Of a DNA stretch of 53,432 bases, positions 22,335-48,824 are shown piece after piece (positions within the stretch are counted from its first letter, which is position 1; each line of letters starts with the position of its first letter). Made by a program: the position numbers and the translations under genes. Under the pieces are notes generated by a model, which did not search any database, was not told the DNA's origin, and saw nothing but the letters and a program-made list of their open reading frames with translations. The DNA comes from Salinivirgaceae bacterium (GTDB lineage Bacteria > Bacteroidota > Bacteroidia > Bacteroidales > SZUA-534), in contig JAUXEM010000004.1 of NCBI GenBank assembly GCA_030620515.1, positions 1 to 53,432 on the forward strand. Direction: 5' to 3'.

Positions 22335-23258
22335 ATGACTGATCAAAAAAACACACCGCAAGAAATTGACTTAATTGAATTATTTGAAAACATTTGGAAT
22401 TGGGTAACTAGAATTTTCTTAGCTGTTTTATATTTCTTTTTGCGAAATATGCTATTTTTGATAATAGTAGTTGTTGTAGCTGGCATAACAGGCTTTTCAG
22501 CATCAAAACTTACAAAACCATTTTATAAAAGTGAACTTTTTGGTATCTCGCACACTATTAGCAATGTTGAAGTAATTCAATATATAAACAACTGGAATTA
22601 CGAGAATGAATTCTCAAAAACAGAATTGTTGAATATTAAAAGTATCACGGCAAAATATGTACTTGACTATAATAATGATAGTATTTGGGATAATGTAGAG
22701 GAAACAAGTGGCAGTATTGTAACAGATACTACCTTAATAAATATGAGAATGAATTATTCTTTCTGCATTAGAACTGAGCTTTACGACACAAGTCTTACGC
22801 AAAAAATTAAAGATAAAATGTTTATGTTTCTTGAAAAGAATAAGCGCGTAAAAAACATGAACCAAATTAGATTAATTCAAAAAAAAGAACTTATTAGTAA
22901 ATTAAAAAAAGAGATAAACGATATAGATAGTTTAAAGGATATACAATACTTTGAAAATAATAACAATAATAGTAAAGATGGCGATTTAATTGTTTTAAAC
23001 GAAAAAGAATTATTGCTGTTTCATAACGATATTATGCCCCTTTACGAACAACAACAAATAATTGAAAAAGAACTATTTTTATCAACAGAACCTTTTGAAA
23101 TTACTCAAGATTTTACTATTCCTAGAGTACAAGAAAACTCATTTATTAAAATAATTATAAAATATATTAAGATTGGATTTGCCATGGGCTTTGTTTTCAT
23201 TTTGTTATGGGATAGGCGAAAAGCAATTAGAAAACTAATTAAAGATTCTGCATTATAG
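22335..23258 (+). CDS. Wzz-like chain-length/polysaccharide co-polymerase-like protein
   Basis: The 307-residue inner-membrane protein has the Wzz topology: a cytoplasmic N-terminus with EIDLIELFENIWNWV, a first helix at about 38-58, a large charged, coiled-coil-rich periplasmic part (about 60-265), and a second helix near the C-terminus (about 272-290), ending in a basic tail. Wzz proteins set O-antigen chain length. The location supports this, because the gene ends exactly where the minus-strand polysaccharide locus ends (convergent). The usual Pro-rich motif before the second helix is weak here (PRVQENSFIKIIIKY), so assignment is by topology. Confidence 0.6.
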   Translation: MTDQKNTPQEIDLIELFENIWNWVTRIFLAVLYFFLRNMLFLIIVVVVAGITGFSASKLTKPFYKSELFGISHTISNVEVIQYINNWNYENEFSKTELLNIKSITAKYVLDYNNDSIWDNVEETSGSIVTDTTLINMRMNYSFCIRTELYDTSLTQKIKDKMFMFLEKNKRVKNMNQIRLIQKKELISKLKKEINDIDSLKDIQYFENNNNNSKDGDLIVLNEKELLLFHNDIMPLYEQQQIIEKELFLSTEPFEITQDFTIPRVQENSFIKIIIKYIKIGFAMGFVFILLWDRRKAIRKLIKDSAL

Positions 23259-29147: not shown

Positions 29148-31058
29148 TTATTGAAAACACTCCTCTTTTAGGGGCTTCCTAAGGACGGTAAAGATAATAA
29201 TTTTTATATCGAGCCAAAATGACCAATATTTCATATAAGCTCTATTAATCCTTACTTTATCAGGAAATATAACTTCATCATTATGTTGCTGTGGATTATC
29301 TTGATTTAATAATAATTCCTCTTCATTTGCATATTTTAGAGTAGCTACACCTGTTAATCCAGGTTTAAGACTTAAAATTTCTTTATCGTCACCTATTAAC
29401 ATATCTGCATAGCCAGAAACATCTGGACGCGGACCAACAAAACTCATATCGCCGCGAATTATATTCCAAAGTTCCGGTAATTCATCAATTTTTGTCCTTC
29501 TCAAAATTTTACCAAATTTAGATATACGGTGAAATTCTGCAGAAGCAACCGAGGTATTTGATATTACTTTAGCCATGGTTCTAAACTTATGAAGTTCAAA
29601 CACTTTACCATTTTGCCCAACCCTTGATTGACTATAAATTATAGGCCATCCATTTAGAATTCCTATAAAAAGAGATGTCAAAAGCAGAAAGGGTAATAAA
29701 ACGATAAATACTATAGTTGCGATTATATAATCTGTTGCCTCTTTAACAAAACGGCTACCAGGTTTATCTAAATTAAAATCAATATGTAATTCTGTAATTT
29801 CCTGATGACGAATAAGAAATGACAAGGAAAACAGAAAAAGGAAGATAGGAACGCTAAATAAACTATTCCCACTAAAAAACACAAATAATAAACTTGTGAA
29901 GAGCATTAAAGAAAAAAGCGTATACTTTTTAAAATACAGTATTCCGTAATACACAGATATTATTAAAAATAGCAATGCAAATACAGCACCTACTATACCT
30001 GAATAAAGTAATGCTGATATTATTGGATTATGAGGGTAATCAACAAGCTCCTTATTTTCATTAAATTCTTGCCCAAAAGCTTGAAGATAAGAAAAGCCAC
30101 TACCAAATACTTTATTAATAAATGGTTGCTGCTGATAATATTCAATAGCGTATTCCCATTTATTAAAATGGAAAGCGTTTGATGTTAGCTCTTGAGTATT
30201 ATTTAAGTACACATTTACATGATGTGTTACCTGATGTACAATCTTATTTTCATTTAAAGAATTAATTACAATCCCAAAAAGAACTACACCAAACAAGAGC
30301 ATTAGTGAATTATTCCTAATATTCTTTATTTTTGCTTGTTTAGAATTTATTAATGTAATAATATTAGTAATTATTAATCCAACTAACAACAAAACTAATA
30401 TTATAATACCTCGATATGAAAATGAAAATAGAATATTAATTAACAATGTTCCAATAATTAATTGAATAAACAAACTTTTGCTCATACTCTGCTTTTTAAT
30501 AAGTAGAGGTATATAACTTATTATTCCTAGGAAAGAATACAATGAATAAAAATTTTTGTCTGAATTAATCGATGTTCCAAAAGGAGTATCAACAGGGAGA
30601 ACTATCCCTTTTAGTTGAAGCATAAACTTAACTAAACCTATTAAAGCTACGACTATTGATGACATACCTATAAACCTAGCTATTTGCTTAAATATTAGTC
30701 TTAAAGTATCTGATTTTTTTGATTGATGGATTAAAGTAAAATAATAAAACAGGAATATCAGTCCCACTACTAATTCAAAAAAGTCTTTAATATTTCGTTC
30801 TAAAACCCTTCCAGTAATAATAATGCCCATAATATAAAAAAGACTTAGTATTAATAATGGGTTGTAGGTTTTAAGGAATTCTACAAGAAAATTTTTCTGC
30901 AAATAAAACTTACGATAATTAACAAAGAAAAAAGCAGAATATATAATGAATGTGGGTATGAATAGGTATTTTACTCCAGGTAGGGTCATTCGGAGGAACC
31001 ACAAGAGAATCATTGCAGAAAACACAAACACACTTCTTGAAACATTTGATTTGGGCAT
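29148..31058 (-). CDS. fusion of O-antigen polymerase/ligase and PglC-type phosphoglycosyl transferase
   Basis: The 636-residue two-part membrane protein carries a Wzy/WaaL-type polytopic domain at residues 1-415 (about 11 helices). It has the periplasmic signature FGSGFSYLQ (318-326) and DYPHNPIISALLYSGIVG (340-357) with probable catalytic His343. Residues 437-632 are a complete monotopic phosphoglycosyl transferase: a re-entrant helix (443-466), SQSRVGQNGKVFELHKFRTM, RRTKIDELPELWNIIRGDMS with the Asp525-Glu526 dyad, and LKPGLTGVATL. It could both start and polymerise a glycan. A short linker (416-436) joins the parts. The reading frame is continuous and the PGT part has all key residues. 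The N-terminal part is paralogous to the protein at 40915-42744. Confidence 0.9.
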   Translation of the reverse strand: MPKSNVSRSVFVFSAMILLWFLRMTLPGVKYLFIPTFIIYSAFFFVNYRKFYLQKNFLVEFLKTYNPLLILSLFYIMGIIITGRVLERNIKDFFELVVGLIFLFYYFTLIHQSKKSDTLRLIFKQIARFIGMSSIVVALIGLVKFMLQLKGIVLPVDTPFGTSINSDKNFYSLYSFLGIISYIPLLIKKQSMSKSLFIQLIIGTLLINILFSFSYRGIIILVLLLVGLIITNIITLINSKQAKIKNIRNNSLMLLFGVVLFGIVINSLNENKIVHQVTHHVNVYLNNTQELTSNAFHFNKWEYAIEYYQQQPFINKVFGSGFSYLQAFGQEFNENKELVDYPHNPIISALLYSGIVGAVFALLFLIISVYYGILYFKKYTLFSLMLFTSLLFVFFSGNSLFSVPIFLFLFSLSFLIRHQEITELHIDFNLDKPGSRFVKEATDYIIATIVFIVLLPFLLLTSLFIGILNGWPIIYSQSRVGQNGKVFELHKFRTMAKVISNTSVASAEFHRISKFGKILRRTKIDELPELWNIIRGDMSFVGPRPDVSGYADMLIGDDKEILSLKPGLTGVATLKYANEEELLLNQDNPQQHNDEVIFPDKVRINRAYMKYWSFWLDIKIIIFTVLRKPLKEECFQ

Positions 31059-31060
31059 TA

Positions 31061-31714
31061 TTAACTAATTAATACTGCTGGAGACCCAAAATAAGTACCA
31101 GCTTTTTTTAGATTTCTTATTACTATGGAACCTGCTCCAATTAAAATATTTGACTGTATTTTTCTTCGAGGAATAATCATTGATTTGGTTCCCATATAAA
31201 CTTTTTCTTCAAGAATGCATTCACCTCCCAAATCAACAGTAGCCATAATTGATGAAAAATCCCCTATCTTGCAATCATGACCAATATTTGTCCCACTATT
31301 AATATAAACGCACTTCCCAAGTTTAACATTAGTTGATATAATGCACTTTGGACAAATTATTGAGCCTTCACCAATTTCAATAAATTTCCCTTCAATAACA
31401 TCTTTATCAACATAAGTAAAGAATTTCACCTGTCCCTTCAACCTATTGTAAATATTCTCTTTCAAAACGGGATCTGCAACAGATAGAATAACATAGTCAT
31501 TGATACTAAATTCCATTTCCGAGATTCGACCTACTATTTTCAAGTTTGATGGATAGCCCTCTAATGCACCCATATTATCATCCAAAAAACCCATCAAACT
31601 CCATTCTAAAGAATCTGAATATGTTAGACTAAACCATGATTCAATTTCGCGACCTGCTCCACCAGCTCCAATTATATATACTTGCTTTTTATTTTGCACT
31701 ATACCCTGAATCAA
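31061..31714 (-). CDS. PglD-like sugar N-acyltransferase (left-handed beta-helix)
   Basis: The 217-residue acyltransferase of the PglD/NeuD group has an N-terminal Rossmann-like sugar-nucleotide part (QVYIIGAGGAGREIESW, 11-27) and a hexapeptide-repeat beta-helix from about 105 to 200. The probable catalytic base is His146 in SGTNIGHDCKIGDF. PglD itself moves acetyl from acetyl-CoA to a UDP-4-amino sugar. Here the neighbours are an ACP, two KAS III enzymes and an SDR, so the donor is probably a hydroxyacyl group from the ACP or CoA. The start overlaps the SDR end by 26 bases. Confidence 0.8.
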   Translation of the reverse strand: MIQGIVQNKKQVYIIGAGGAGREIESWFSLTYSDSLEWSLMGFLDDNMGALEGYPSNLKIVGRISEMEFSINDYVILSVADPVLKENIYNRLKGQVKFFTYVDKDVIEGKFIEIGEGSIICPKCIISTNVKLGKCVYINSGTNIGHDCKIGDFSSIMATVDLGGECILEEKVYMGTKSMIIPRRKIQSNILIGAGSIVIRNLKKAGTYFGSPAVLIS

Positions 31715-32444
31715 TTAATAAATTTGTACCTGTAATCTTTGTACTTAAATCTGATAATAGGAATAAACATCCATTCGCTACATCTTCTGAAGCTATCCAA
31801 CCTAGGGAATGCATTGCCTTCAACTCAACTTGGTTTTCATCTGGTATTTCATTAAAGAATTGCTTTGCCATAGGTGTATCAGTTACATAACCAGGAGAAA
31901 TTGTATTTACTCTAATGTTTTTAGATGCCAATTCTAGTGCTATAGCCTTTATACCAGAAGACAGCATCCCTTTACTGGCACAATAACCAACCAAACCTGG
32001 TTGACCTAAAGCTCCCATTACTGATGATATTACAATAAAACTAGCTCCTTCTTGAGATAAATTCTTCTTCTTCGAAACCGTTTTCATTATTTCAAAAGCA
32101 GAAATAGCATTGGTTCGTATTTGAATTTCATAATCAGATATTTTATGCATTTTAAAAGGTTTTGTAATCTCAATACCAGCTGCATGAATAAATCCAAATA
32201 TCTTGCCTAATTTAGAAACACTTTTTGAAATTATGCTATCTACTTCATCTGTATTATTCACATCGACTGAATAATATAAGTGATTTTCTCCATTCAATTT
32301 ACTTAAAGTCTCTTCTAAACGTTGAACATTTCGTCCTATTAAAATACAATTAGCCCCACATTTACTTAATGTGATAGCACATTGCCTTCCAATACCTGAA
32401 GAAGCTCCTGTTATTATAATATTTTTACCTTTCAACGAAATCAT
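31689..32444 (-). CDS. SDR-family 3-oxoacyl reductase (FabG-like)
   Basis: The 251-residue classical short-chain dehydrogenase/reductase has a TGASSGIGR cofactor motif (12-20), the ISSVMG serine (140-141), and Tyr154 and Lys158 in GYCASKG. The order and length are FabG-like. In the cassette it would reduce the 3-oxo group made by the KAS III enzymes on the dedicated ACP (inference). It shares one base with the upstream KAS III stop (TAATG-type coupling). Confidence 0.83.
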   Translation of the reverse strand: MISLKGKNIIITGASSGIGRQCAITLSKCGANCILIGRNVQRLEETLSKLNGENHLYYSVDVNNTDEVDSIISKSVSKLGKIFGFIHAAGIEITKPFKMHKISDYEIQIRTNAISAFEIMKTVSKKKNLSQEGASFIVISSVMGALGQPGLVGYCASKGMLSSGIKAIALELASKNIRVNTISPGYVTDTPMAKQFFNEIPDENQVELKAMHSLGWIASEDVANGCLFLLSDLSTKITGTNLLIDSGYSAK

Positions 32445-33502
32445 TATACTTCAATTAATTTTAGATATTCTAGTTTTTTACAATTAATTATTGCACTTCC
32501 ATAAGTTAATCCAGCACCATATCCCGAAAGCAATAAGTTCTTATCAGTTTGTTCAATCTCACCTTTTAAATCACTTGTTATTGCTAAAGGTATCGATACT
32601 GAACTTGTATTTCCAAATCGGTCAATATTTATCACTAACCTTTCTTTATCAAGCCCAAGTTCATTACCAATTAAGTTAATAATAAATTTATTTGATTGAT
32701 GTAGTACATAAGAAGACATTTCTCCTTTTCTAAATCCAGAAAAATCAAGGGTTTCAGCTATATTTTTAGCCACAACCCTCATCGTAAAATCAAAAACCTC
32801 TCCACCATTCATCATTAATTGTGTATTATTCCTAATACTACCATCCTCATACTCTTGATTATCTAAACTTTGGGTTGAGATTGGATTACGACATCCACCA
32901 TCAGGTATTTGGATTACGCTTGATCCTTTCCCATCAGAATTTAAAGATATAAAAACCGGAGCGGCACTTTTATCTTTTTCTATTAATGTAGCTGCTGCAC
33001 CATCTCCAAACATTAATGATGTACTTCTATCCTTTTTACTCAATATCTTTGACATTGTTTCTGCAGTAATCAGCAATACCTTATCTATATTGTCCATTTT
33101 AGCAAGAGACATACAAAATGCCAATCCACTAATATAACCAGCACATCCTGCATTTATATCATAGGTAAATATCTCTGTCGATAAACCCAATTTTTCTTGA
33201 AGAATATTGGAAGTAAAAGGGATCTTATAATCAGGTGTTTGACTTAGAAAAACAATAGCATTAATAGAGTTTTTATCAATATCTAAATCTTCAATTAATT
33301 TATTAGCTGCATAAAAACCTAAATCAGACGCACAAACGTCATCTTCCACAAAACGTCTTTCTTTAATTCCAGTAGTTTTAATAAATTTCCTAAGCTCCTT
33401 TTCAGAAAAAACAGAATTTACAGCATCTGTTTTTACAACTTTCTTAGGAACTGCAGAACATATTCCTTTTATTGCTACTCCACTAATACAAGTCTTTCCC
33501 AT
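32444..33502 (-). CDS. beta-ketoacyl-ACP synthase III homologue, copy A
   Basis: FabH-like condensing enzyme, 352 residues. The catalytic triad is complete: Cys120 in DINAGCAGYISGL, His268 in YVLHQSNKF and Asn298 in FGNTSSVSIP. KAS III joins an acyl-CoA or a short acyl primer with malonyl-ACP. It lies 5 bases after the ACP gene and is tandem with a second, diverged KAS III (33752-34750). It belongs to the acyl-assembly cassette rather than to housekeeping fatty acid synthesis, because it is embedded between glycan genes. Confidence 0.9.
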   Translation of the reverse strand: MGKTCISGVAIKGICSAVPKKVVKTDAVNSVFSEKELRKFIKTTGIKERRFVEDDVCASDLGFYAANKLIEDLDIDKNSINAIVFLSQTPDYKIPFTSNILQEKLGLSTEIFTYDINAGCAGYISGLAFCMSLAKMDNIDKVLLITAETMSKILSKKDRSTSLMFGDGAAATLIEKDKSAAPVFISLNSDGKGSSVIQIPDGGCRNPISTQSLDNQEYEDGSIRNNTQLMMNGGEVFDFTMRVVAKNIAETLDFSGFRKGEMSSYVLHQSNKFIINLIGNELGLDKERLVINIDRFGNTSSVSIPLAITSDLKGEIEQTDKNLLLSGYGAGLTYGSAIINCKKLEYLKLIEV

Positions 33503-33507
33503 AATTA

Positions 33508-33741
33508 CTATTCAAATTGCTCAGCTCCAATTAAATTAATTATATCTTTCAATAGCTTAACATCCTTTAATTGCATGGCTGTAATTTTAACGTTGAAATT
33601 TTCACTCGCAATAGCAATAACTGCTAATACTGCCATTGAGTCCCATTCAGCCAAACTAGATAACTCAGTATCTTGTGTAACTTCTATATCTTCAATTTCT
33701 AATTCTTCAACAAACAAGTCAATAAATTCTTCTATTTTCAT
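33508..33741 (-). CDS. acyl carrier protein
   Basis: The 77-residue acidic helical protein carries the phosphopantetheine attachment serine at Ser35 in EWDSMAVLAVI, the usual DSL-type motif with Met at the third position. The size and three-helix pattern are standard for an ACP. It stands alone between two KAS III genes (10 and 5 bases away), so it is probably a dedicated carrier of the cassette and not the fatty-acid ACP. Confidence 0.88.
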   Translation of the reverse strand: MKIEEFIDLFVEELEIEDIEVTQDTELSSLAEWDSMAVLAVIAIASENFNVKITAMQLKDVKLLKDIINLIGAEQFE

Positions 33742-33751
33742 AATTTTATTT

Positions 33752-34750
33752 TTAAATATCTAATATTAAAGCACCATAAGATAAACCTACACCAAACCCA
33801 ACCAACATAAGCTTATCACCTTTTTTAATTTTCGATTGAGCTTGTAAGTTTTTAATTGCAATTGGAATAGTTGCAGAAACGGTATTTCCACTATTCTCAA
33901 AATTAATGCAAAATTTCTCCTTTGCAATACCTATTCTTTTTCTTAAAAAATTCAACATATATTTATTTGCTTGATGGAAGACAAAAAAGTCTATTTCATC
34001 CAAAGATTGATTATTTTTATATAAAGTATCAGCTACTAACTTTGGAATAGTTTCAATGGTAAAATTGAAAATTTCTGGACCATCCATATATAAATGATCA
34101 TTCGATGTTATATTATTTGTCCCATATGAATATTCACTATTATCAATACCACATTTCGAACGCAAACCACCATTTTTAACTATCAGCTTATCAAATCCAC
34201 TACCATCAGTACCTAATACGAAATTCCCAATTGAATTGACATCTTCATTACTTATAATTGTTGCTGCTGCTCCATCTCCAAATATTGATCGATTTGATCT
34301 ATCCTCTTTATGGATGTATTTTGAATATGTTTCAGATACTACAAAAAGAATATTTGCAGCTATACCTGCACTTAACAATCCTTTGCATATAGATAAACCA
34401 TAAATATACCCAGAACACCCTAAATTAAAATCAAATGCTCCAATATCTTTTCTTAATCCCAATTTGTCTTGCAAAATACATGCTGTCGTTGGAAGATGAT
34501 AATCGGGACTTTGAGTACAAAGGATCACATAATCAATTTCTTTTTTATCAAACCTTGTTAATAATTTCTGACTCGCACCAATGGCTAGGTCAAGTGCTGT
34601 TTCATTTGTGTCAACAATATGTCTATTTATAATCCCAACTTTTTTTTCAAAGTTACTACTATTCCAATCAGGAAATTCTTTAGCTAATTGATTATTTGAT
34701 AATATATTAGTCGGTAAGTAAAATTCTATTTTATTTAAAATTGACCTCAT
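33752..34750 (-). CDS. beta-ketoacyl-ACP synthase III homologue, copy B
   Basis: FabH-like condensing enzyme, 332 residues. The triad is complete: Cys112 in FNLGCSGYIYGL, His259 in FVFHQANKY and Asn289 in SGNTVSATIP. It shares the fold and motifs with copy A but is clearly diverged, which suggests different primer specificity (for example one for acetyl-CoA and one for a 3-hydroxybutyryl primer; inference). It is first in the cassette and is followed after 10 bases by the ACP gene. Confidence 0.9.
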   Translation of the reverse strand: MRSILNKIEFYLPTNILSNNQLAKEFPDWNSSNFEKKVGIINRHIVDTNETALDLAIGASQKLLTRFDKKEIDYVILCTQSPDYHLPTTACILQDKLGLRKDIGAFDFNLGCSGYIYGLSICKGLLSAGIAANILFVVSETYSKYIHKEDRSNRSIFGDGAAATIISNEDVNSIGNFVLGTDGSGFDKLIVKNGGLRSKCGIDNSEYSYGTNNITSNDHLYMDGPEIFNFTIETIPKLVADTLYKNNQSLDEIDFFVFHQANKYMLNFLRKRIGIAKEKFCINFENSGNTVSATIPIAIKNLQAQSKIKKGDKLMLVGFGVGLSYGALILDI

Positions 34751-38169: not shown

Positions 38170-38877
38170 TTATTTAAACACTCTTAATATTAACTGTAGT
38201 AATGAATATACTCTAATTGATATCTTTTTAAAAAATGAGTTTGGACTTTTAATTCCTGCAGGAGAAGCATTTGAATCATGCCTTCTATATAAAATTAATT
38301 CCTTATTTACTAAACCCACTTTATAAAAAAACTCACCAATAAGAGTAAGCCAATAATCATGAGCACAAAGTATAGCATTATGGGGAAAAGGCAATGCCTT
38401 TTCTAAAATTGATCTTTTAAACCCCATACATGCTCCAATATAGGATGGTTTTAATAAATGTCTTACAAAACCTGTCTTCATGTTTCCTAATTTAAAGTGA
38501 GACCCTTTTGTAGTAATTAAATCCTCATTTACATGAGTTGCATCAGAAATAACTAAATCAAATTTTTCCAAATAATTACACATTGTGAAAACCTTGTCCT
38601 TTTTCCATACATCATCTTGATCCGATAAGAAAATTATCTCTCCACTTGATTTATTAATTGCATTCTCAAAATTACGTGTATATCCTCTACTTGTATTATT
38701 GAAAAATATTTTTATTCGCTGATCTTTTATTCTTTTTATTATATCAACTGTATTATCACTGGAATAATCATCGGATACAATAACTTCGTCAAATTCAGAC
38801 AATTGACACAAAATAGAAATCAATTGTTCATAGATATATTTTTCTCCATTATAGGTTGCAATACAAACACTTATCAT
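38170..38877 (-). CDS. family 2 glycosyltransferase, rhamnosyltransferase-like
   Basis: The 235-residue GT-A enzyme is cytoplasmic. ISVCIATYNGEKYIYEQL (2-19) is the start block. The DxD-type motif lies in FLSDQDDVWKKDK (about 74-86), a form common in rhamnosyltransferases. ICAHDYWLTLIG (about 168-179) is the conserved acceptor end. It shares 4 bases (ATGA) with the upstream polymerase gene, so they are translationally coupled. Confidence 0.82.
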   Translation of the reverse strand: MISVCIATYNGEKYIYEQLISILCQLSEFDEVIVSDDYSSDNTVDIIKRIKDQRIKIFFNNTSRGYTRNFENAINKSSGEIIFLSDQDDVWKKDKVFTMCNYLEKFDLVISDATHVNEDLITTKGSHFKLGNMKTGFVRHLLKPSYIGACMGFKRSILEKALPFPHNAILCAHDYWLTLIGEFFYKVGLVNKELILYRRHDSNASPAGIKSPNSFFKKISIRVYSLLQLILRVFK

Positions 38878-40067
38878 ATAGTTATTCCACCTTTTTGTTC
38901 GACCAATTCTAAACGTTTCATACTAACATACGCAATAACAACAAAACCAATCCCCATTGAATTCGTTATATAAGGATTAAATAATGACTGTACATACATT
39001 AAAAAAATCCCAAAACAATATCCAATTCCAACAAGTACGTTTTGCTTCAGTCTAAATATAATTTTAACACTATCAAATAATATATATATCCAAATACCAA
39101 GGCCTAAAACACCTTGTTTATGGAATATTTCAAGATATGACATTTCCATATGCACTTCTCTTAAAGGAACTCCAACACCAAAACCATGTCCCATAAAAAA
39201 AGAAAAAAAAGTTATTCTCTCAACAACCTGCATAATAGTTTGTATGCGAACACTATCACCACCAGTCCTATTACCATCAAGTCCTGCAAAACTAATAAAA
39301 ATAAAAATGAAGACTGCCAAAAAAGCAAGAGTAAAAATAAAAAGCTTTACAATTGATACTTTAAAATAATTTTTGTTTAAAATATATAATCCACTAAGAA
39401 TATAAGCAAGAATAGCCATTACCCAAAAACCTCTAGTTTGTGTGAAAAATATTGCTGTCGCTAATAAAGTACTTTGAATAGATAAAACTCCTTTATCTAG
39501 ATTATAGAACAACAGAGCTATTGGAAGATATACAAACCCTTTATAGAAAAGAATTCCTGTTATTCCCCTGTACCTAAAGTCTGAAAAATTATGTAATAAA
39601 TTATAGATATCGTCAAAATCATAGAAAGAAAAATTCAATAATAAGATATAGAGAACATAAATAACAGAGATAATTAGTGAAACCTTTTTAAAAAGTTCTT
39701 TAACTTGAATAACACTTTCAATATTTTTAATATAAAAAAAGATAAACAAAATAGACAAAAAGTAACTTAATGATTTTATATCTATAACTATGTTTTCTCC
39801 ACCACCGTTAATATATCCTATTATAATACTATAAATCAAAATTACACAGTAATATAAAAAAATCACAGCAATATCTTTAGGAATAGACTTACGTTTTAGA
39901 ACTAAAAGAGAACCTATAAAAAGCATTAGAAAAAAATTTACAATTCGTAATGTTAATCCCCCAAATATTAATAATATCTGCCCACTTCCAAATGCAAACA
40001 ATTCAATAAATATTATGAATCCTAATAAATTTCTAAATTCTGTATTTCTCAATCTTAAAAGCTCCAT
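38874..40067 (-). CDS. O-antigen polymerase/ligase-like membrane protein
   Basis: The 397-residue polytopic protein has about 11 hydrophobic segments and a late periplasmic loop with MGHGFGVGVPLREVHMEMSYLEIFHKQG. The GHGFG and HMEMSYLEIFHKQG parts fit the Wzy/WaaL pattern with candidate catalytic His residues. It is the third Wzy/WaaL-type protein of the locus and the shortest. It cannot be told from sequence whether it polymerises repeat units or ligates them to lipid A core. Confidence 0.78.
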   Translation of the reverse strand: MELLRLRNTEFRNLLGFIIFIELFAFGSGQILLIFGGLTLRIVNFFLMLFIGSLLVLKRKSIPKDIAVIFLYYCVILIYSIIIGYINGGGENIVIDIKSLSYFLSILFIFFYIKNIESVIQVKELFKKVSLIISVIYVLYILLLNFSFYDFDDIYNLLHNFSDFRYRGITGILFYKGFVYLPIALLFYNLDKGVLSIQSTLLATAIFFTQTRGFWVMAILAYILSGLYILNKNYFKVSIVKLFIFTLAFLAVFIFIFISFAGLDGNRTGGDSVRIQTIMQVVERITFFSFFMGHGFGVGVPLREVHMEMSYLEIFHKQGVLGLGIWIYILFDSVKIIFRLKQNVLVGIGYCFGIFLMYVQSLFNPYITNSMGIGFVVIAYVSMKRLELVEQKGGITI

Positions 40068-40073
40068 TTTTTT

Positions 40074-40925
40074 TTAAATCTTATTAAATATTGCCTTAAC
40101 TGATATTCTTGAATACTCTTTATTCTTGAAAGAAAATTGCTTAATCAATCTAACAGTTAATCTTGCCTTGTAAGCAACAAAATTAAACATATTCGACTTG
40201 AAAAACTCTTTCTCAGCCCTCAATATAGTTTTATACCTCTGAACTGAAACCGATTCTTCAAACGATAAAACTGAAAGGTTGTGTACTATACTTGTTCCTA
40301 TAACGTAAATTTTCTTTTTATATTTATTTGCTAAATTAAAAAACCAATGATCTAACATGTCTAAAGGGTATTTTTCACTAAATCCATTTAAGCTTTCTAT
40401 AAAACGAATACGAATAACTGTTCCCGAATTTATTCCTGTAACAGATGCAGATTGGATTCCTAAAACCACTTCGTTAATTGGTTTACAATATCCTCCAATT
40501 GACATGACACTAGGTGATATTGGATCTCCTTGAATAGAAACTACTCTTGGCATAAAACATATTAAGTTGTTGTCATGAACATTCTCCTGCATGCTACCTG
40601 ATAAAATACTAAAATAGTTTTCAGGTAAAAAAGTATCTTGATCTAATAAAAGCAACCATTTTTTCTTATCCTGATTAGCAATTTTGATTGCATAATTATA
40701 AGCAGAAGCAATTCCAGGATTCGATGGATTATGTATATATTTAATATTAAGCTTTTTGAAATAAACTTCTTCTTCTACAATGAGAGAATTGTCATAAATA
40801 AGGACATCTAGTTTTTCATTAAAATATGTTAATGATTTATTTAATGTCTTTAATGTTTCTGATTCTGACATTTTGCAATTGTACAAAACAACTACAGCAT
40901 GTAATTCTAATAACTTAATATTCAT
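40074..40925 (-). CDS. family 2 glycosyltransferase, RfbF/WbbL-like
   Basis: GT-A enzyme of about 283 residues. HAVVVLYNCK is the start block, IKYIHNPSNPGIASAYNYAI follows, and the DxD-type motif is in WLLLLDQDTFLPENYF. This LLDQDT form is typical of RfbF-like rhamnosyltransferases, and the rml genes in the locus supply dTDP-rhamnose. I start it at the ATG at 40925, because a longer frame from 40973 adds 16 basic residues that have no GT2 counterpart and overlap the upstream gene more. It overlaps the end of the upstream polymerase by 11 bases. Confidence 0.82.
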   Translation of the reverse strand: MNIKLLELHAVVVLYNCKMSESETLKTLNKSLTYFNEKLDVLIYDNSLIVEEEVYFKKLNIKYIHNPSNPGIASAYNYAIKIANQDKKKWLLLLDQDTFLPENYFSILSGSMQENVHDNNLICFMPRVVSIQGDPISPSVMSIGGYCKPINEVVLGIQSASVTGINSGTVIRIRFIESLNGFSEKYPLDMLDHWFFNLANKYKKKIYVIGTSIVHNLSVLSFEESVSVQRYKTILRAEKEFFKSNMFNFVAYKARLTVRLIKQFSFKNKEYSRISVKAIFNKI

Positions 40926-42744
40926 TCTTATTAAAATATTTAATTTCTTCTTTATCAAATAGACTTGGAACAATACTCAAAAATAAAAACACAGGAACAG
41001 AAAAATGAGAATTACCACTAATTATTGAAAATACAAAAACCATAATAAATGGGAAATATAATATTTCATTTTTACTTCTTAGCTTTAAATATGAAATTAT
41101 TACCCAAATTATAAATATAACATAAACAACTCCACCTATTATCCCAGAGTATAAAAATGATGAAATTATTGGATTATGAGGATAATCAATCTTACCTAAC
41201 TTCTTCTTGTAAAATTCTAAATAATCAAATCCACTACCAAAAAATTTTTTGAAAAATGTTTGGTTTTTGAAAAATTCGTATGCAAGTGCATACCTTGTTA
41301 ATCTTCCATTTCCATCCCACTCTAAAGTTTCATTTTGGCTAAAAGACAGTGTATCCAATACATAATTAACTACTTGTTTACTATTATTAGTTCGTTTTAA
41401 TTTTACGTCGGATATAATCAATTGAGTATTTGGCAATTGATAATTAAAGAATCCTAAGCAATTTTTTTCATCTTTTATAAATTCATATTCGCAATTAATT
41501 TGATACCATGATTCTTCAGTCAAAGTATCAATGTTTTTTTTCAAATCAAAACTCCTAATGCCATTAATATCCTTGGTATTTTCTCCTAATGCAAATCCTG
41601 CCATTATCGAATTTACATCGCCAATTACAGGTTTACATTTATATTCTAATTCGTATTGATGAGCGCCATGAAAATAAATTCGCCTTCCTCTATATAACAA
41701 AGACCATAAACCAGGTAATGCATCATCTTTAGATAGTTTAATTCCTTTTCCATATGGAGTTTCAACAATTGCTACTCGTAGTCCTTTTGCATTATGTGTC
41801 CAATATAACATATCAAATTCAAAATCACCATTTGCAATCAGATTATCATTTAATTTAGAAACATATCTCACATTATTCATTTTCAACTTATCAGAAAATA
41901 TTTCATAATTTGCATTTGGATTAATCATATTGTAATACCTGTATGCTAATTGAGAAATATTTTCAAGAGTATTTTCAGATAGAAAATAGGCGATTTTTAA
42001 TTTATTAAATGACAATGCCGAAATGAAAATAAGTCCTATTAGAACACCAATGAAGACTTTAAAATTGTTTCCTCTTAATGAAATATAAAATATATAAGCA
42101 TACAAAATAAAAAGAAATATTAAACCTCTTCTTGATCCTGAAAAAAGGACAACCAATGAAAATATTATTGATAACAATGCTTTTAATGGAATACTATACC
42201 TAAAATGCACTTTTACCTTTAAAACTATATATAATCCTATTAAATATGCCAATGAAAAGAAATTCACATCAGACATTAATGATGTAGAGTGATATGCAGA
42301 ACTAATAGTAATAAAACCCGCAAAATTCAAAAGCCCTAAAATAGCTACTGGAACAAGTAAACTAACCCAAGTAAAACCAAGTATTTGAAGAAATTTATTT
42401 ATATCTATTTCTTCTTTTCGTTCTTCCCAGAAAAATATAAATGATATGATAACCAACATATGAAATATATCGGAAACTAAAACGGATGTAAATTCAAATT
42501 GAACTACAAAAGGAATAAAATATAAAATACAAACTATTATATATAAAAAATATTTTCTACTTGCATTAAGCATACCTATAAAGGACAATGATCTTATATT
42601 TACAATTAAAAACACTATCCATAATGGTATAAATATATATATCATACCAGGAATAGCCATTCGCAAAACAAAAGCACTAATAACAAAGTTAAAAAACCAT
42701 GAAGTAAGTTCTATTCCATTAAACTTTTGTAAAATATTTCTCAT
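40915..42744 (-). CDS. O-antigen polymerase/ligase with inserted carbohydrate-binding-like domain
   Basis: The 609-residue Wzy/WaaL-type membrane protein has N-terminal helices (residues 12-250) and C-terminal helices (528-592). Both flank a long periplasmic loop (about 255-525). The loop contains an inserted beta-sandwich-like module at about 298-453. It starts NLIANGDFEFDMLYWTHN and ends LIISDVKLKR, the outline of a CBM4/9 or galactose-binding-like jelly roll. The usual loop end is intact: FFGSGFDYLE (501-510) and DYPHNPIISSFLYSGIIG (520-537), with candidate catalytic His523. The same loop in the paralogue at 29148-31058 lacks the insert. The insert may hold or measure the growing glycan (inference). 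Confidence 0.85.
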   Translation of the reverse strand: MRNILQKFNGIELTSWFFNFVISAFVLRMAIPGMIYIFIPLWIVFLIVNIRSLSFIGMLNASRKYFLYIIVCILYFIPFVVQFEFTSVLVSDIFHMLVIISFIFFWEERKEEIDINKFLQILGFTWVSLLVPVAILGLLNFAGFITISSAYHSTSLMSDVNFFSLAYLIGLYIVLKVKVHFRYSIPLKALLSIIFSLVVLFSGSRRGLIFLFILYAYIFYISLRGNNFKVFIGVLIGLIFISALSFNKLKIAYFLSENTLENISQLAYRYYNMINPNANYEIFSDKLKMNNVRYVSKLNDNLIANGDFEFDMLYWTHNAKGLRVAIVETPYGKGIKLSKDDALPGLWSLLYRGRRIYFHGAHQYELEYKCKPVIGDVNSIMAGFALGENTKDINGIRSFDLKKNIDTLTEESWYQINCEYEFIKDEKNCLGFFNYQLPNTQLIISDVKLKRTNNSKQVVNYVLDTLSFSQNETLEWDGNGRLTRYALAYEFFKNQTFFKKFFGSGFDYLEFYKKKLGKIDYPHNPIISSFLYSGIIGGVVYVIFIIWVIISYLKLRSKNEILYFPFIMVFVFSIISGNSHFSVPVFLFLSIVPSLFDKEEIKYFNKNEY

Positions 42745-42767: not shown

Positions 42768-44180
42768 TTAAATATTCTTATTCAACAAAATATATTTTAA
42801 CTTATTGATTTGATTTCTTTTGAAGGATATAAATAAAAAACCACTACAAGCAAACATATATAGAACATTAATTATAAAATAATTTTCATCAAGTATAAAT
42901 TCTCTAAACAATACAAATAGAATAGATGAGACTGCAAATAATATCAAACGAAGATCAACTAATATTGTATTAAAATACTTTATTGTAAATACAAAATATA
43001 AGGTAAACAATACAAAATGTGTAAACATGCTAACATACGATGCTCCTACATACCCAAATTCAGGAATGATGAAAAAATTAAGAATTAAATTTACGACAAG
43101 AGTAACAAACACAATAAGTACTCTTATGTTTTGATGATTAGAAATAGTAAGTAATACGGCATAAACAACCGAAAATACTCTAAAAAGCAAAACAAAACTT
43201 AATGGAATGGTTAATGAAATTGAAGCACTATATTTCTCAGAATATAATAAAGTTACGATATCATTAGAAAAAAGGTTAATGAAAACAAATAGTAAAATAC
43301 CAATAGAAGCAATCGCTTTATTTATAAGTAATGCCTCCATCTTAAATTTAAATAAGTCTTTAGGAAATAATTTAGCTAGATATGGTAAAAATACATTATT
43401 GAATAAATCCGTAAAAATCAATAATAATAAAATAATTTTAAAAAATGCAGAATACAATGCTAAAGCCTCATTTCCTACATAATAAGCAATCAATTGCGTG
43501 TCAATTAATAGATAGAATATGCCAATAATATAGTGGGCTCCAAATGAGAATGAATTAATAAATAGATAGCGTTGAATTTCTTTGTTAATTTGTATTTTAA
43601 ATTTAAATTTTGAACCATAAATAGAAGTCAATACTATTAACTGTAAGAATCTTACTAATAATAATCCATATGCAATAAATAAAACATCTAACTTAAATAA
43701 ATAATATATTATAACTAGAATAATTAAACTTGCTGTATAGAATAAAGCTAACCAGCTTTCTATCTTAAACATATTTTTCGCTCGGAAAATTGCGAAAAAA
43801 TACGTTGTATTTGAAGTAATTATCGCATTTACAACAAAGATAATCCCAATTGTAAGATTATTTCCTGAATATAATAATAATAGATATACAAGCCCTCCAA
43901 TTAATGATAATATTGAAAAACCTACTTTTTGTATAAGGGTATTTATAACATAATCACTAAAACTAAATCTATCTTGAGGAATATCTCGTTGTGCCATCAA
44001 AGAAAATCCAAATTCCGCAATAACAGATAATAGCCCTGCAAGAGAGACTCCAAAAGAAAGCAATCCAAAATCTTCTAAACTCATTAATCTAGCAAGTATT
44101 ATATAAATAACACTACCAGATACAATCCGACTTAAAAATGTGAATAAAGATAGTCCTATGTTCTTTGCTAACGACGCCAT
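42768..44180 (-). CDS. polysaccharide flippase (Wzx type), first copy
   Basis: The 470-residue membrane protein has 12-14 hydrophobic segments. The start SLAKNIGLSLFTFLSRIVSGSVIYIILAR and the following LMSLEDFGLLSFGVSLAGLLSVIAEFG are typical of the Polysacc_synt/RfbX group. It exports lipid-linked repeat units across the inner membrane. It lies between the CBM-bearing polymerase and the CDP-glycerol-transferase-like gene. Confidence 0.88.
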   Translation of the reverse strand: MASLAKNIGLSLFTFLSRIVSGSVIYIILARLMSLEDFGLLSFGVSLAGLLSVIAEFGFSLMAQRDIPQDRFSFSDYVINTLIQKVGFSILSLIGGLVYLLLLYSGNNLTIGIIFVVNAIITSNTTYFFAIFRAKNMFKIESWLALFYTASLIILVIIYYLFKLDVLFIAYGLLLVRFLQLIVLTSIYGSKFKFKIQINKEIQRYLFINSFSFGAHYIIGIFYLLIDTQLIAYYVGNEALALYSAFFKIILLLLIFTDLFNNVFLPYLAKLFPKDLFKFKMEALLINKAIASIGILLFVFINLFSNDIVTLLYSEKYSASISLTIPLSFVLLFRVFSVVYAVLLTISNHQNIRVLIVFVTLVVNLILNFFIIPEFGYVGASYVSMFTHFVLFTLYFVFTIKYFNTILVDLRLILFAVSSILFVLFREFILDENYFIINVLYMFACSGFLFISFKRNQINKLKYILLNKNI

Positions 44181-45382: not shown

Positions 45383-46510
45383 CTATTTAATTAAAAAGTT
45401 CATAAATCCAATCTTGTTATCTACAGGCAGAATGGTTGGTCTACCTAAATTATCTCGCGAGCCTACTTTTACTTTTATTTCAAGTAGCGAAGGACCTTGC
45501 ACATCAGAAATCGAATTTAATACATTATCTAGTTCAGTTGCAGTAAATACACTTTGAGCATATTTATACCCATTAGCTAATGCTATTTGGGGAATATTGA
45601 TATTGAAACCAACAGTAGGTTGTCCTCCAACAGATTCATGCGCTCCATTATTTATAATAATATGAACTAAATTTTCAGGAGCAGCAGCTCCTACAATTGC
45701 AAGTGCACCCATATGCATTAGTAAAGCTCCATCACCATCTAAACATATAAAGTTCTTTTCTGGCTGACTTATAGCTAAACCAAGTGCAATCTGACTTGAA
45801 TGCCCCATCGATCCAACGGTTAAAAAGTCAGAATGATGAGGCTGATTAAGTTGCTCTCTAATTTCAAATAATTCTCTTGAGGTTTTCCCAGTAGTTGAAA
45901 CAATTATCACATCACCTTTTAATTGTTTTACGATTTGTAAAATGGCATCCTCTCTCGAAAGTTCACAAGAATTAATAATTCCTTCTTTGAGGTTGTATTT
46001 TTCAAAAGTTCCCTTTTTTATTATCAAAGCATGAGGAGCATTGGTTTCTTTAATTTTATTCAATACAATAATTAGTTCTTCATAAGCTTTATCTTCTTCC
46101 ACACTTAAAATAGCATATGGAATATGCATCGCATCCAATAAGTCTAAAGTAACTTCACCTTGGGTAACATGTTGCGGTTCGTCTTTAATTCCAGGCTCCC
46201 CTCTCCAGCCAATCATTAATAATACTGGAATATTATACACCTTTTTATCGGTTAATGATAAAAGAGGGTTAACAGCATTCCCAATTCCTGAGTTCTGCAT
46301 ATAAACCAAAGGTGTATTACCGGTACCCATATGATATCCTGCAGCTAATGCAATAGCATTGCCTTCGTTAGCAGCAATAATATGGTTTGTTTTTGGTGCA
46401 TTATCAGTAATGTATGCGCAGATATCTTTTAATAAAGAGTCAGGTACACCACTATAGAAGTCAACCTTATTTTCTTTTAGCCAGTTAAAAAAGCTTGCTG
46501 GATTAATCAT
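45383..46510 (-). CDS. aepY: phosphonopyruvate decarboxylase
   Basis: TPP-dependent enzyme that decarboxylates phosphonopyruvate to phosphonoacetaldehyde and so pulls the unfavourable PEP mutase reaction forward. It is about 375 residues from the ATG at 46510 (TAATG overlap with the aepX stop). It has YSGVPDSLLKDI (the PPD signature), NEGNAIALAAGYH with the TPP glutamate, and LDGDGALLMHMGALAIVG followed by IIINNGAHESVGGQPT (the GDG...NN TPP-Mg site). A longer start at 46558 would overlap aepX by 49 bases and is less likely. Confidence 0.92.
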   Translation of the reverse strand: MINPASFFNWLKENKVDFYSGVPDSLLKDICAYITDNAPKTNHIIAANEGNAIALAAGYHMGTGNTPLVYMQNSGIGNAVNPLLSLTDKKVYNIPVLLMIGWRGEPGIKDEPQHVTQGEVTLDLLDAMHIPYAILSVEEDKAYEELIIVLNKIKETNAPHALIIKKGTFEKYNLKEGIINSCELSREDAILQIVKQLKGDVIIVSTTGKTSRELFEIREQLNQPHHSDFLTVGSMGHSSQIALGLAISQPEKNFICLDGDGALLMHMGALAIVGAAAPENLVHIIINNGAHESVGGQPTVGFNINIPQIALANGYKYAQSVFTATELDNVLNSISDVQGPSLLEIKVKVGSRDNLGRPTILPVDNKIGFMNFLIK

Positions 46511-47811
46511 TATTTTGTTCCTGGAATTAGTTCTAATATTTCTTTTATTGACAAACATTTATCATTAGCATCAAAAGATCTACCGTTAGATAAAATAGAT
46601 TTCGCTACGTCCACCATTGCAGGGTAGGATGCTCTAAGCATGTGATTAGCATAAATCACAACATTAACTCCCCAATTTGAAAATTCTACTTCTGTAATAT
46701 GATTAAATGTAGAAGGAACAACAATAATTGGTGTTGATGAATTATTTTGACGGAATTTCTCACAGAATTCTTTAATATCGAAACCTGTTTTTTCTTTACT
46801 GTGAATCATGATACCGTCAGCACCAGCTTCCACATAGGCAAACGCACGTTCTAAAGCATCTTCAACAGATTTTCCAAGAATTAAGCTTTCTACACGAGCA
46901 ATAACCATAAAATCATCAGTCACTTGTGCATTTTTACCAGCTTGTATTTTGCTACAAAAATCATCTATAGTATCTTGGGTCTGTGGTACGGCAGTTCCAA
47001 ATAATGAATTCTTTTTCAATCCTGTTTTATCTTCAATAATTACTGCAGATATACCATGGCGTTCTAAAGTACGAACAGTAAATACAAAATGTTCCACTTT
47101 GCCCCCAGTATCACCATCATAGATAATAGGTTTTGTCGTGCATTCTAGTGTGTCATTTAAACCATGCATACGAGTAGTAATATCAACAGCCTCAATGTCA
47201 GGTTTTCCTTTAGAAGTAGAGTCCGTTAAACTACTTGACCACATTCCATCAAATTCCTGTGTAACACCATTAATTTCCACCTTAATGTTTTCAGCAATTA
47301 GTCCAGTTAAACCACTGTGCGATTCTAAGATGCGAACAATCGGTTTAGCCTGAATTAGTCGACGAAGCCTTTTCATTCGTATTTCAGGAGTAGTCCCAAT
47401 CGATTTTAAATTCTCGTTAAGCTGAGTAGAAGAGATGCCTTTAGTGTAAGGAATGTCAATCACTTTTCCTCCCCAGGCTGATATCGTATCGATTACGGCT
47501 TGTCTGGTTTTTTTCTGAATACCTTCTTTCCAATCGTCACCATGAACCACAAAATCAGGTTTCTCAGCTAACAAGTTCGGTACATAATCTAAAGTATTTT
47601 GAGGAATAACTTTTTTAACCCCTTTCAAATTCTCAACAATTAGTTTACGTTGTTTAAAACTCAAAAAAGGGAGTCTTTTATAGCTCGCTATTGCCTCATC
47701 AGTAAGTACACCAACTGTTACTTCACCAAGCTTTGCACCTTCATTAATAATATTTAAATGTCCTGGATGAATTAAATCCGCACTCATTCCGATATATACT
47801 CTTTTACTCAT
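46510..47811 (-). CDS. aepX: PEP mutase fused to an N-terminal cytidylyltransferase
   Basis: Two-domain enzyme of about 433 residues from the ATG at 47811. Residues 1-140 form a nucleotidyltransferase with the HxGH motif ([10 protein letters not shown], about 14-23) and GISST near 125-129. Residues 150-433 are PEP mutase with the diagnostic [10 protein letters not shown] loop (about 260-269) and the metal-site region YDGDTGG (about 231-237). PEP mutase makes the C-P bond of phosphonopyruvate. The fused domain would activate a phosphonate as the CMP ester. PEP mutase and the next gene correspond to AepX and AepY of the B. fragilis aminoethylphosphonate polysaccharide, but no AepZ aminotransferase is seen here. 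The longer start at 47835 is less likely. Confidence 0.9.
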
Positions 47812-47816
47812 AATAA

Positions 47817-48824
47817 TTAATTTTTCAAATACCACTCAATAGTTTTTATAATCCCACTCTCAAAATTCTCATCGGCTTTCCAGTCCAATTCTTGCTCAAT
47901 TTTGGTGGCATCAATGGCATAACGCCTATCGTGTCCAGCTCTATCATGCACAAAAGTAATTTGATCTTTATATGAACCTGATGCTTTAGGTTGCTTTTTA
48001 TCTAAATACTTACAAATGTGATTTACTATATCCAAATTTGTTTTCTCGTTGCGTCCACCAATATTATAGGTTTCTCCTGATCTTCCTTTATGACAAACCA
48101 GATCAATACCAGTACAATGATCTAATACATATAACCAATCACGAATATTTTTACCATCACCATAAATTGGAATATTTTCACCATTTATAGCTTTCTTAAT
48201 AATTACCGGAATTAACTTCTCTCCATGCTGTTTCGGACCATAGTTATTTGAACAGTTACTTGTAGTAACATCCATTCCGTAAGTATGAAAATAGGCACGA
48301 ACTAAAAAGTCTGAACTAGCTTTAGCTGCAGAGTACGGTGAATTAGGTGCATAAGGCGTAACTTCCTCAAATAAACCAGTTTTGCCTAATGTTCCATATA
48401 CCTCATCAGTTGATATATGGTGAAAACGACATTGTTCATATCCCTCTTTATATTCAAAAGGAGCATTCATCCAATACTTACGAGCTACATCTAATAAAGT
48501 AAATGTCCCATTTATATTGGTTTGAATAAATACTTCCGGTCCTGAAATAGAATTATCCACATGCGATTCTGCTGCAAAATGAATTACACCCCTTATATCA
48601 TAGGTTTTAAATAGATATTCAATCAATTCTCTATTACATATATCTCCTTGAACAAAAGTATAACATTCATTATTTTCAATCTCCGAAAGATTATCTAGAT
48701 TTCCAGCATATGTTAATTTATCTAAATTAATTAAATTGTATTCTGCATATTTATTTATAAAATATGGGATAAAATTTGATCCTATGAAACCAGCTCCACC
48801 AGTTACTAATATTGATTTATTCAT
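47817..48824 (-). CDS. rmlB: dTDP-glucose 4,6-dehydratase
   Basis: Extended SDR that oxidises and dehydrates dTDP-glucose to dTDP-4-keto-6-deoxyglucose, the second step to dTDP-rhamnose. About 335 residues. It has [17 protein letters not shown] for [27 protein letters not shown] with the catalytic Asp-Glu, and the active Tyr-x3-Lys in [36 protein letters not shown] is the RmlB hallmark. The start at 48824 overlaps the end of rmlD by 8 bases. Confidence 0.96.

Follow-up and report, generated by a model that had tools for sequence, protein, structure and literature searches.

A PF04932-superfamily membrane protein from uncultured Bacteroidales with a CBM4/9-like domain in its catalytic periplasmic loop

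In the window, the whole 53,432-nucleotide stretch of Salinivirgaceae bacterium DNA analyzed here (contig JAUXEM010000004.1), one gene encodes a membrane protein, P0001, in which the catalytic loop of a PF04932-superfamily core is interrupted by a beta-sandwich domain of the CBM4/9-like type. The parts are known, both the PF04932 core and the CBM4/9-like fold; in the open-access papers searched we found no description of their combination, a PF04932 core with a CBM-like loop insert. The reading that we somewhat prefer is that P0001 is a lipid-linked-glycan transferase and that the inserted module holds a glycan beside the active site.

Little is understood of the way in which Wzy and WaaL enzymes select a chain and an acceptor, or of the sensing of chain length, in part because sequence similarity among the core enzymes is low. 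In the family described here, the presumed glycan reader is a separate domain in the catalytic loop, and natural variants carry no, one or two copies of it, so that the question of chain and acceptor choice becomes testable.

The gene and its interrupted core

The coordinates of P0001, of its parts and of three neighboring genes in the window are as follows.

40915..42744, minus strand: P0001, membrane protein of 609 aa, PF04932 superfamily, carrying the CBM4/9-like insert (ORF and PF04932)
42007..42708, minus strand: residues 13-246 of P0001, predicted TM1-TM9, transferase core (hydropathy; helices in a low-confidence model)
42127..42135, minus strand: SRR motif of P0001, S204-R206 (alignment; PMC10920833)
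41383..41853, minus strand: residues 298-454 of P0001, inserted CBM4/9-like beta-sandwich domain (profile, model, fold matches, CBM_4_9 in relatives)
41176..41304, minus strand: residues 481-523 of P0001, catalytic-loop signature comprising the R481/R484 helix, FGSGF and DYPHNP with H523 (invariant columns)
40957..41142, minus strand: residues 535-596 of P0001, predicted TM10-TM12 (hydropathy)
29148..31058, minus strand: P0002, an insert-free paralogue in which a PF04932 core is joined to an initiating sugar-phosphate transferase, Bac_transf (PF02397) (Pfam, hydropathy)
38874..40067, minus strand: P0003, a second PF04932-like protein (weak Wzy_C) with Glu replacing His, a candidate repeat-unit polymerase (profile)
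42768..44180, minus strand: Wzx-type flippase, directly upstream of P0001 (PF01943)

The ORF of P0001 is real, with 609 codons' worth of amino acids and no internal stop; it lies where a preliminary description of this DNA had placed the gene, on the minus strand, which that description did not give. The hydropathy profile has 12 peaks and a single large segment, residues 247-534, between peaks 9 and 10; judging by how charges are distributed over the short loops, this segment is outside the cytoplasm. About 12 TM helices and a big TM9-TM10 loop are what is expected of PF04932 proteins.

The PF04932 profile (Wzy_C, O-antigen ligase; curated cut-off 31.7 bits) matched intact P0001 in two pieces, the best at residues 191-260, with a total of 24.6 bits; both pieces counted together in the P0001 frame gave 36.6 bits. 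When residues 263-470 were removed in silico, one continuous match over positions 2-149 scored 41.7 bits, above the cut-off. P0001 is therefore a normal PF04932 domain interrupted by an insertion, and it is a member of the PF04932 superfamily, since the cut-off is reached once the insert is excised. Neither NCBIfam nor PHROGs contained a family matching P0001. No WaaL match came out of PDB profile searches with the core, and a fold search with the full-length model, which is of low confidence, gave matches to the insert alone, both results being still compatible with relatedness.

The residues R205, R206, R481, R484, D520 and H523 are all invariant in the alignment (n=13 proteins), and the SRR motif is unchanged in 13/13 aligned relatives. 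By its order in the chain, this motif is likely the counterpart of the first WaaL Arg. The catalytic-loop signature and His523 had been described as retained, and both are in place, His523 within DYPHNPIIS and FGSGF ahead of it. The PHNP-type core is rare: it occurred in 18/393 genomes drawn from the order and, among 395 genomes drawn across the phylum, in the own genome only.

Fold, conservation and distribution of the insert

Our insert profile puts the domain at residues 298-454, one residue beyond the 298-453 first proposed, and it begins NLIANGDFEFDMLYW and finishes LIISDVKLKR, as had been read. The insertion site lies in the periplasmic loop from predicted TM9 to TM10, just ahead of the R481/R484...H523 segment. 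The extra loop length in P0001 is ~205 residues, made up of the ~157-residue domain and its linkers. The loop of the paralogue P0002 is indeed short, its segment by hydropathy being residues 269-348 as against 247-534 in P0001.

The insert was predicted alone with 15 aligned copies (pLDDT 83.3, pTM 0.81), and the model contains ten strands and no helix of at least four residues. The structure prediction that the preliminary description had proposed as a check thus returned a beta-sandwich and not another fold. With this model, the best Foldseek match was the CBM4 of CelK (3p6b, E 6e-7), and other best matches were a porphyran-binding CBM (8xmz), a hyaluronan-binding module (4d0q) and a CBM16; CBM4, CBM16 and CBM22 modules account for most of the top structural matches. 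VIA-align paired the insert with a CBM4-2 variant (2y6k; Z 13.5, rmsd 2.4, 136 residues), which is one of several tied matches headed by the GH51 arabinofuranosidase 6zps (Z 13.8). By model and structural matches alike, the insert is a beta-sandwich jelly roll of the CBM4/16/22 type. Phage tailspikes, insecticidal Cry proteins and Eph receptors are also among its matches, and sugar binding is therefore not proven by the fold on its own.

The CBM_4_9 profile (PF02018; curated cut-off 25.9 bits) gave the window copy of the insert 13.3 bits, under the cut-off, and it matched 11/15 insert copies at E up to 1. Three whole relatives scored above the cut-off (L105, 34.0 bits; L040, 31.7 bits; L046, 26.5 bits), and L064 fell narrowly under it at 25.8 bits. 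The insert profile in turn matched the sequence of 3p6b weakly (E 0.021). Run blind on 395 Bacteroidota genomes, it matched only two places besides the window, one in a GH9 cellulase, whose N-terminal domain is CBM_4_9-like (24.3 bits, just below the cut-off), and one in a domain of a putative secreted protein (loci L057 and L058, respectively). Fold, relatives' scores and blind search bear out the proposal of a CBM4/9-like jelly roll inside the catalytic periplasmic loop.

Across 20 copies of the insert, W315, Y364 and G383 never vary, and 17 to 20 copies retain the motif W347...Y351-x-G353-R354-x-I356-x-[YF]358; some of these conserved residues are likely scaffold. The window protein has F and A in place of W384 and W385, two aromatics that are conserved in most relatives' inserts.

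Relatives were gathered by a whole-genome search and a contig scan. Single-protein scans of IMG/VR and GTDB contigs found no relative of P0001, and tblastn against plasmids found no match to it; an alignment query of the contigs gave 20 loci, and the organisms in the contig scan are MAGs labelled Salinivirgaceae, Marinilabiliales, Bacteroidales or Bacteroidetes. The insert domain occupies the identical site in 17 relatives, all uncultured Bacteroidales, in one or two copies, and its presence in P0001 is therefore not chance. By the insert profile, 12 of these are further full-length single-copy members, and L040 and L064 hold two tandem copies each. One copy in L101 and two in L105 were read from the sequence, the latter aligning with the insert profile at an hhalign E of 6e-25, and L042 is an insert-bearing fragment cut by the contig end.

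The preliminary description would have given up a lectin role if all members had the same insert without ligand-binding surface residues. Not all members have it: the P0002 type, L078 and L107 have short loops without it, and the loop of L077 is somewhat longer than theirs. Other members carry other sequences in this loop. A different insert of ~450 residues is present in L045, L047 and L104, and one clade (L051, L102 and L103; 1125-1127 aa) has four beta-rich repeats there, each of ~155 residues and arranged in tandem.

L045, 4761-7361: 866-871 aa class, ~450-residue loop insert, no Pfam match in the insert
L047, 12225-14825: 866-871 aa class, ~450-residue loop insert, no Pfam match in the insert
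L104, 7002-9617: 866-871 aa class, ~450-residue loop insert, no Pfam match in the insert
L051, 6834-10211: four-repeat type
L102, 7484-10864: four-repeat type
L103, 8315-11698: four-repeat type

L050 has one repeat related to the four-repeat type, and L076 and L106 have further inserts. When shallow alignments were compared profile to profile, the insert showed no homology with either the four-repeat type (A5) or the ~450-aa type (A6), and the first repeat of the four-repeat type matched CBM_4_9 weakly (E 0.012 and 0.017). In a tree of the cores only, the insert-type labels clustered; the rows of L035 and L036 were cut at the wrong SRR motif, and the many long branches and open forks allow no count of insertion events. 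Elsewhere in the own genome (L112, 1321-2919 on contig C133), a PF04932 match is split by ~120 extra residues in the same loop, with a different sequence.

Ligase-type or polymerase-type transferase

The preliminary description called P0001 an O-antigen polymerase, and this assignment is not established, as the His is of the GT121 type and relatives' loci hold separate polymerase candidates of other families. The family PF04932 includes polymerases, and P0001 shares its operon with the Wzx flippase directly upstream. P0001 might accordingly be a repeat-unit polymerase (Wzy), with a module that grips the growing chain and gives processivity or sets its length, a role with which the varying domain number across the family also agrees; we put the chance of this at a little short of even. 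The catalytic-type residue speaks against it. According to PMC10920833, the GT121 ligases carry a His together with two Arg, and in the same clan's polymerase families this His gives way to Asp or Glu, GT127 being the exception. H523 is invariant in 13/13 proteins, and P0001 lacks the Asp/Glu of the clan GT-C1 Wzy polymerases; R205/R206, R481/R484 and H523 are likened to the WaaL Arg/Arg/His by order alone. P0003, nearby on the same strand and in the same operon, has Glu where P0001 has His. In addition, the relatives' loci contain separate polymerase candidates of other families, above cut-off in L032 (PF14296) and L034 (EpsG) and weaker in L040 and L046.

The His type and these separate candidates together favor a ligase-type or second transferase. 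Two observations count against this: the own genome encodes several further His-type PF04932 proteins, and many loci carry two flippases, so two pathways may share one locus. On balance, and by virtue of its His, P0001 looks slightly more like a ligase, which joins a finished chain, than like a repeat-unit polymerase.

Among the other genes of the window, P0002 scored 36.6 bits with PF04932 and 170 bits with Bac_transf; fusions of its type are conserved in six other genomes (47-55% identity), in several of which a DegT aminotransferase (69-76% identity) adjoins the fusion. A PEP mutase-cytidylyltransferase fusion and a TPP enzyme resembling phosphonopyruvate decarboxylase (45383-47835, minus strand) suggest that the glycan of the window locus is phosphonate-decorated; six rumen loci (L033, L035-L039) have the two close to their insert-bearing gene as well. 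The polysaccharide locus also contains two KASIII-like ketoacyl synthases and an SDR (31689-34750, minus strand), which are unusual in such a setting. The ORF at 22335-23258 is Wzz-like in appearance and gave no Pfam match. A role of the module as a Wzz substitute is unsupported; the genome has three PF02706 genes.

The proposed role of the module and its known counterparts

As an inner-membrane PF04932 transferase, P0001 would take a glycan off undecaprenyl pyrophosphate and join it to a periplasmic acceptor. From its place at the entrance to the catalytic loop, the module may bind a glycan, be it donor chain or acceptor, and a glycan kept next to the active site would set the choice of substrate or allow the enzyme to stay on long chains. 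We infer sugar binding from the fold and the conservation of the insert; length control, a role that the preliminary description had suggested, found no support and stays a hypothesis. The 13.3 bits of the window copy with CBM_4_9 and the replacement of W384/W385 by F/A count against glycan holding, as does the use of the jelly-roll fold for protein binding in Eph receptors and the CBD-1 of BcsB.

This last point leads to another view of the insert, as a docking or structural domain that binds no sugar and either engages a partner protein, possibly Wzz, a transport component or the other transferase, or keeps the active site at a distance from the membrane. Eph receptors are among the matches, and the CBD-1 of BcsB docks BcsC (PMC11379886), an example that keeps this explanation alive; the sequence-unrelated inserts at the same site in other members are what a spacer would permit. 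However, carbohydrate-binding modules make up most of the top structural matches, and a cellulase's CBM_4_9-like domain is picked up by the insert profile; we regard a docking or structural role as unlikely, if worth keeping in mind. PF04932-type folds also include protein O-transferases, and PglD/PglE/PglC-like genes (PF17836, PF01041, PF02397) adjoin members in the window, L047, L102 and L104, but such first-sugar genes also initiate ordinary O-antigens and the locus resembles a variable surface-polysaccharide cluster, so that a Bacteroidales protein O-glycosyltransferase (oligosaccharyltransferase) with a module recognizing the glycan or the protein acceptor is very improbable. Returning to a glycan-holding module, a wider extension would be a Bacteroidales transferase class in which jelly rolls, gained and duplicated to varying numbers in the catalytic loop, bind polysaccharide and act as a chain selector or ruler that determines which chain is joined or how long it is; we consider this a long shot.

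Like WaaL (GT121; structure 7TPG), P0001 belongs to the PF04932 superfamily, has ~12 TM helices and has a last large periplasmic loop with what are, judged by residue order, counterparts of its Arg/Arg and catalytic-type His (PMC10920833); unlike WaaL, it has the ~157-residue CBM4/9-like domain and linkers at the start of that loop. The two-domain GT121 ligase WadA, with its fused GT25, likewise pairs an O-ligase-type core with a second carbohydrate-active domain (PMC10920833). However, WadA has a catalytic glycosyltransferase domain that is appended, whereas P0001 has a binding-type fold inserted in the catalytic loop. The insert shares its fold with CelK CBM4 (3p6b), CBM4-2, CBM16 and CBM22 modules, although those belong to secreted plant-polymer glycoside hydrolases and not to a membrane glycan transferase.

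Taken as analogies, the closest working counterparts of the module are the carbohydrate-binding domain of Wzt and the jelly rolls of BcsB. The Wzt domain reads O-antigen chain ends and is, as proposed for the P0001 module, a jelly roll in O-antigen assembly (PMC9445017), but it is cytoplasmic, C-terminal on an ATPase and part of another pathway; the likeness is one of analogy, with no claim of homology. BcsB, of the bacterial cellulose synthase, has CBD-like jelly rolls in the periplasm, next to a polysaccharide synthase of the inner membrane (PMC11379886), although there the jelly rolls belong to a separate subunit and the catalytic enzyme is a different one, while in P0001 the module lies within the catalytic loop itself.
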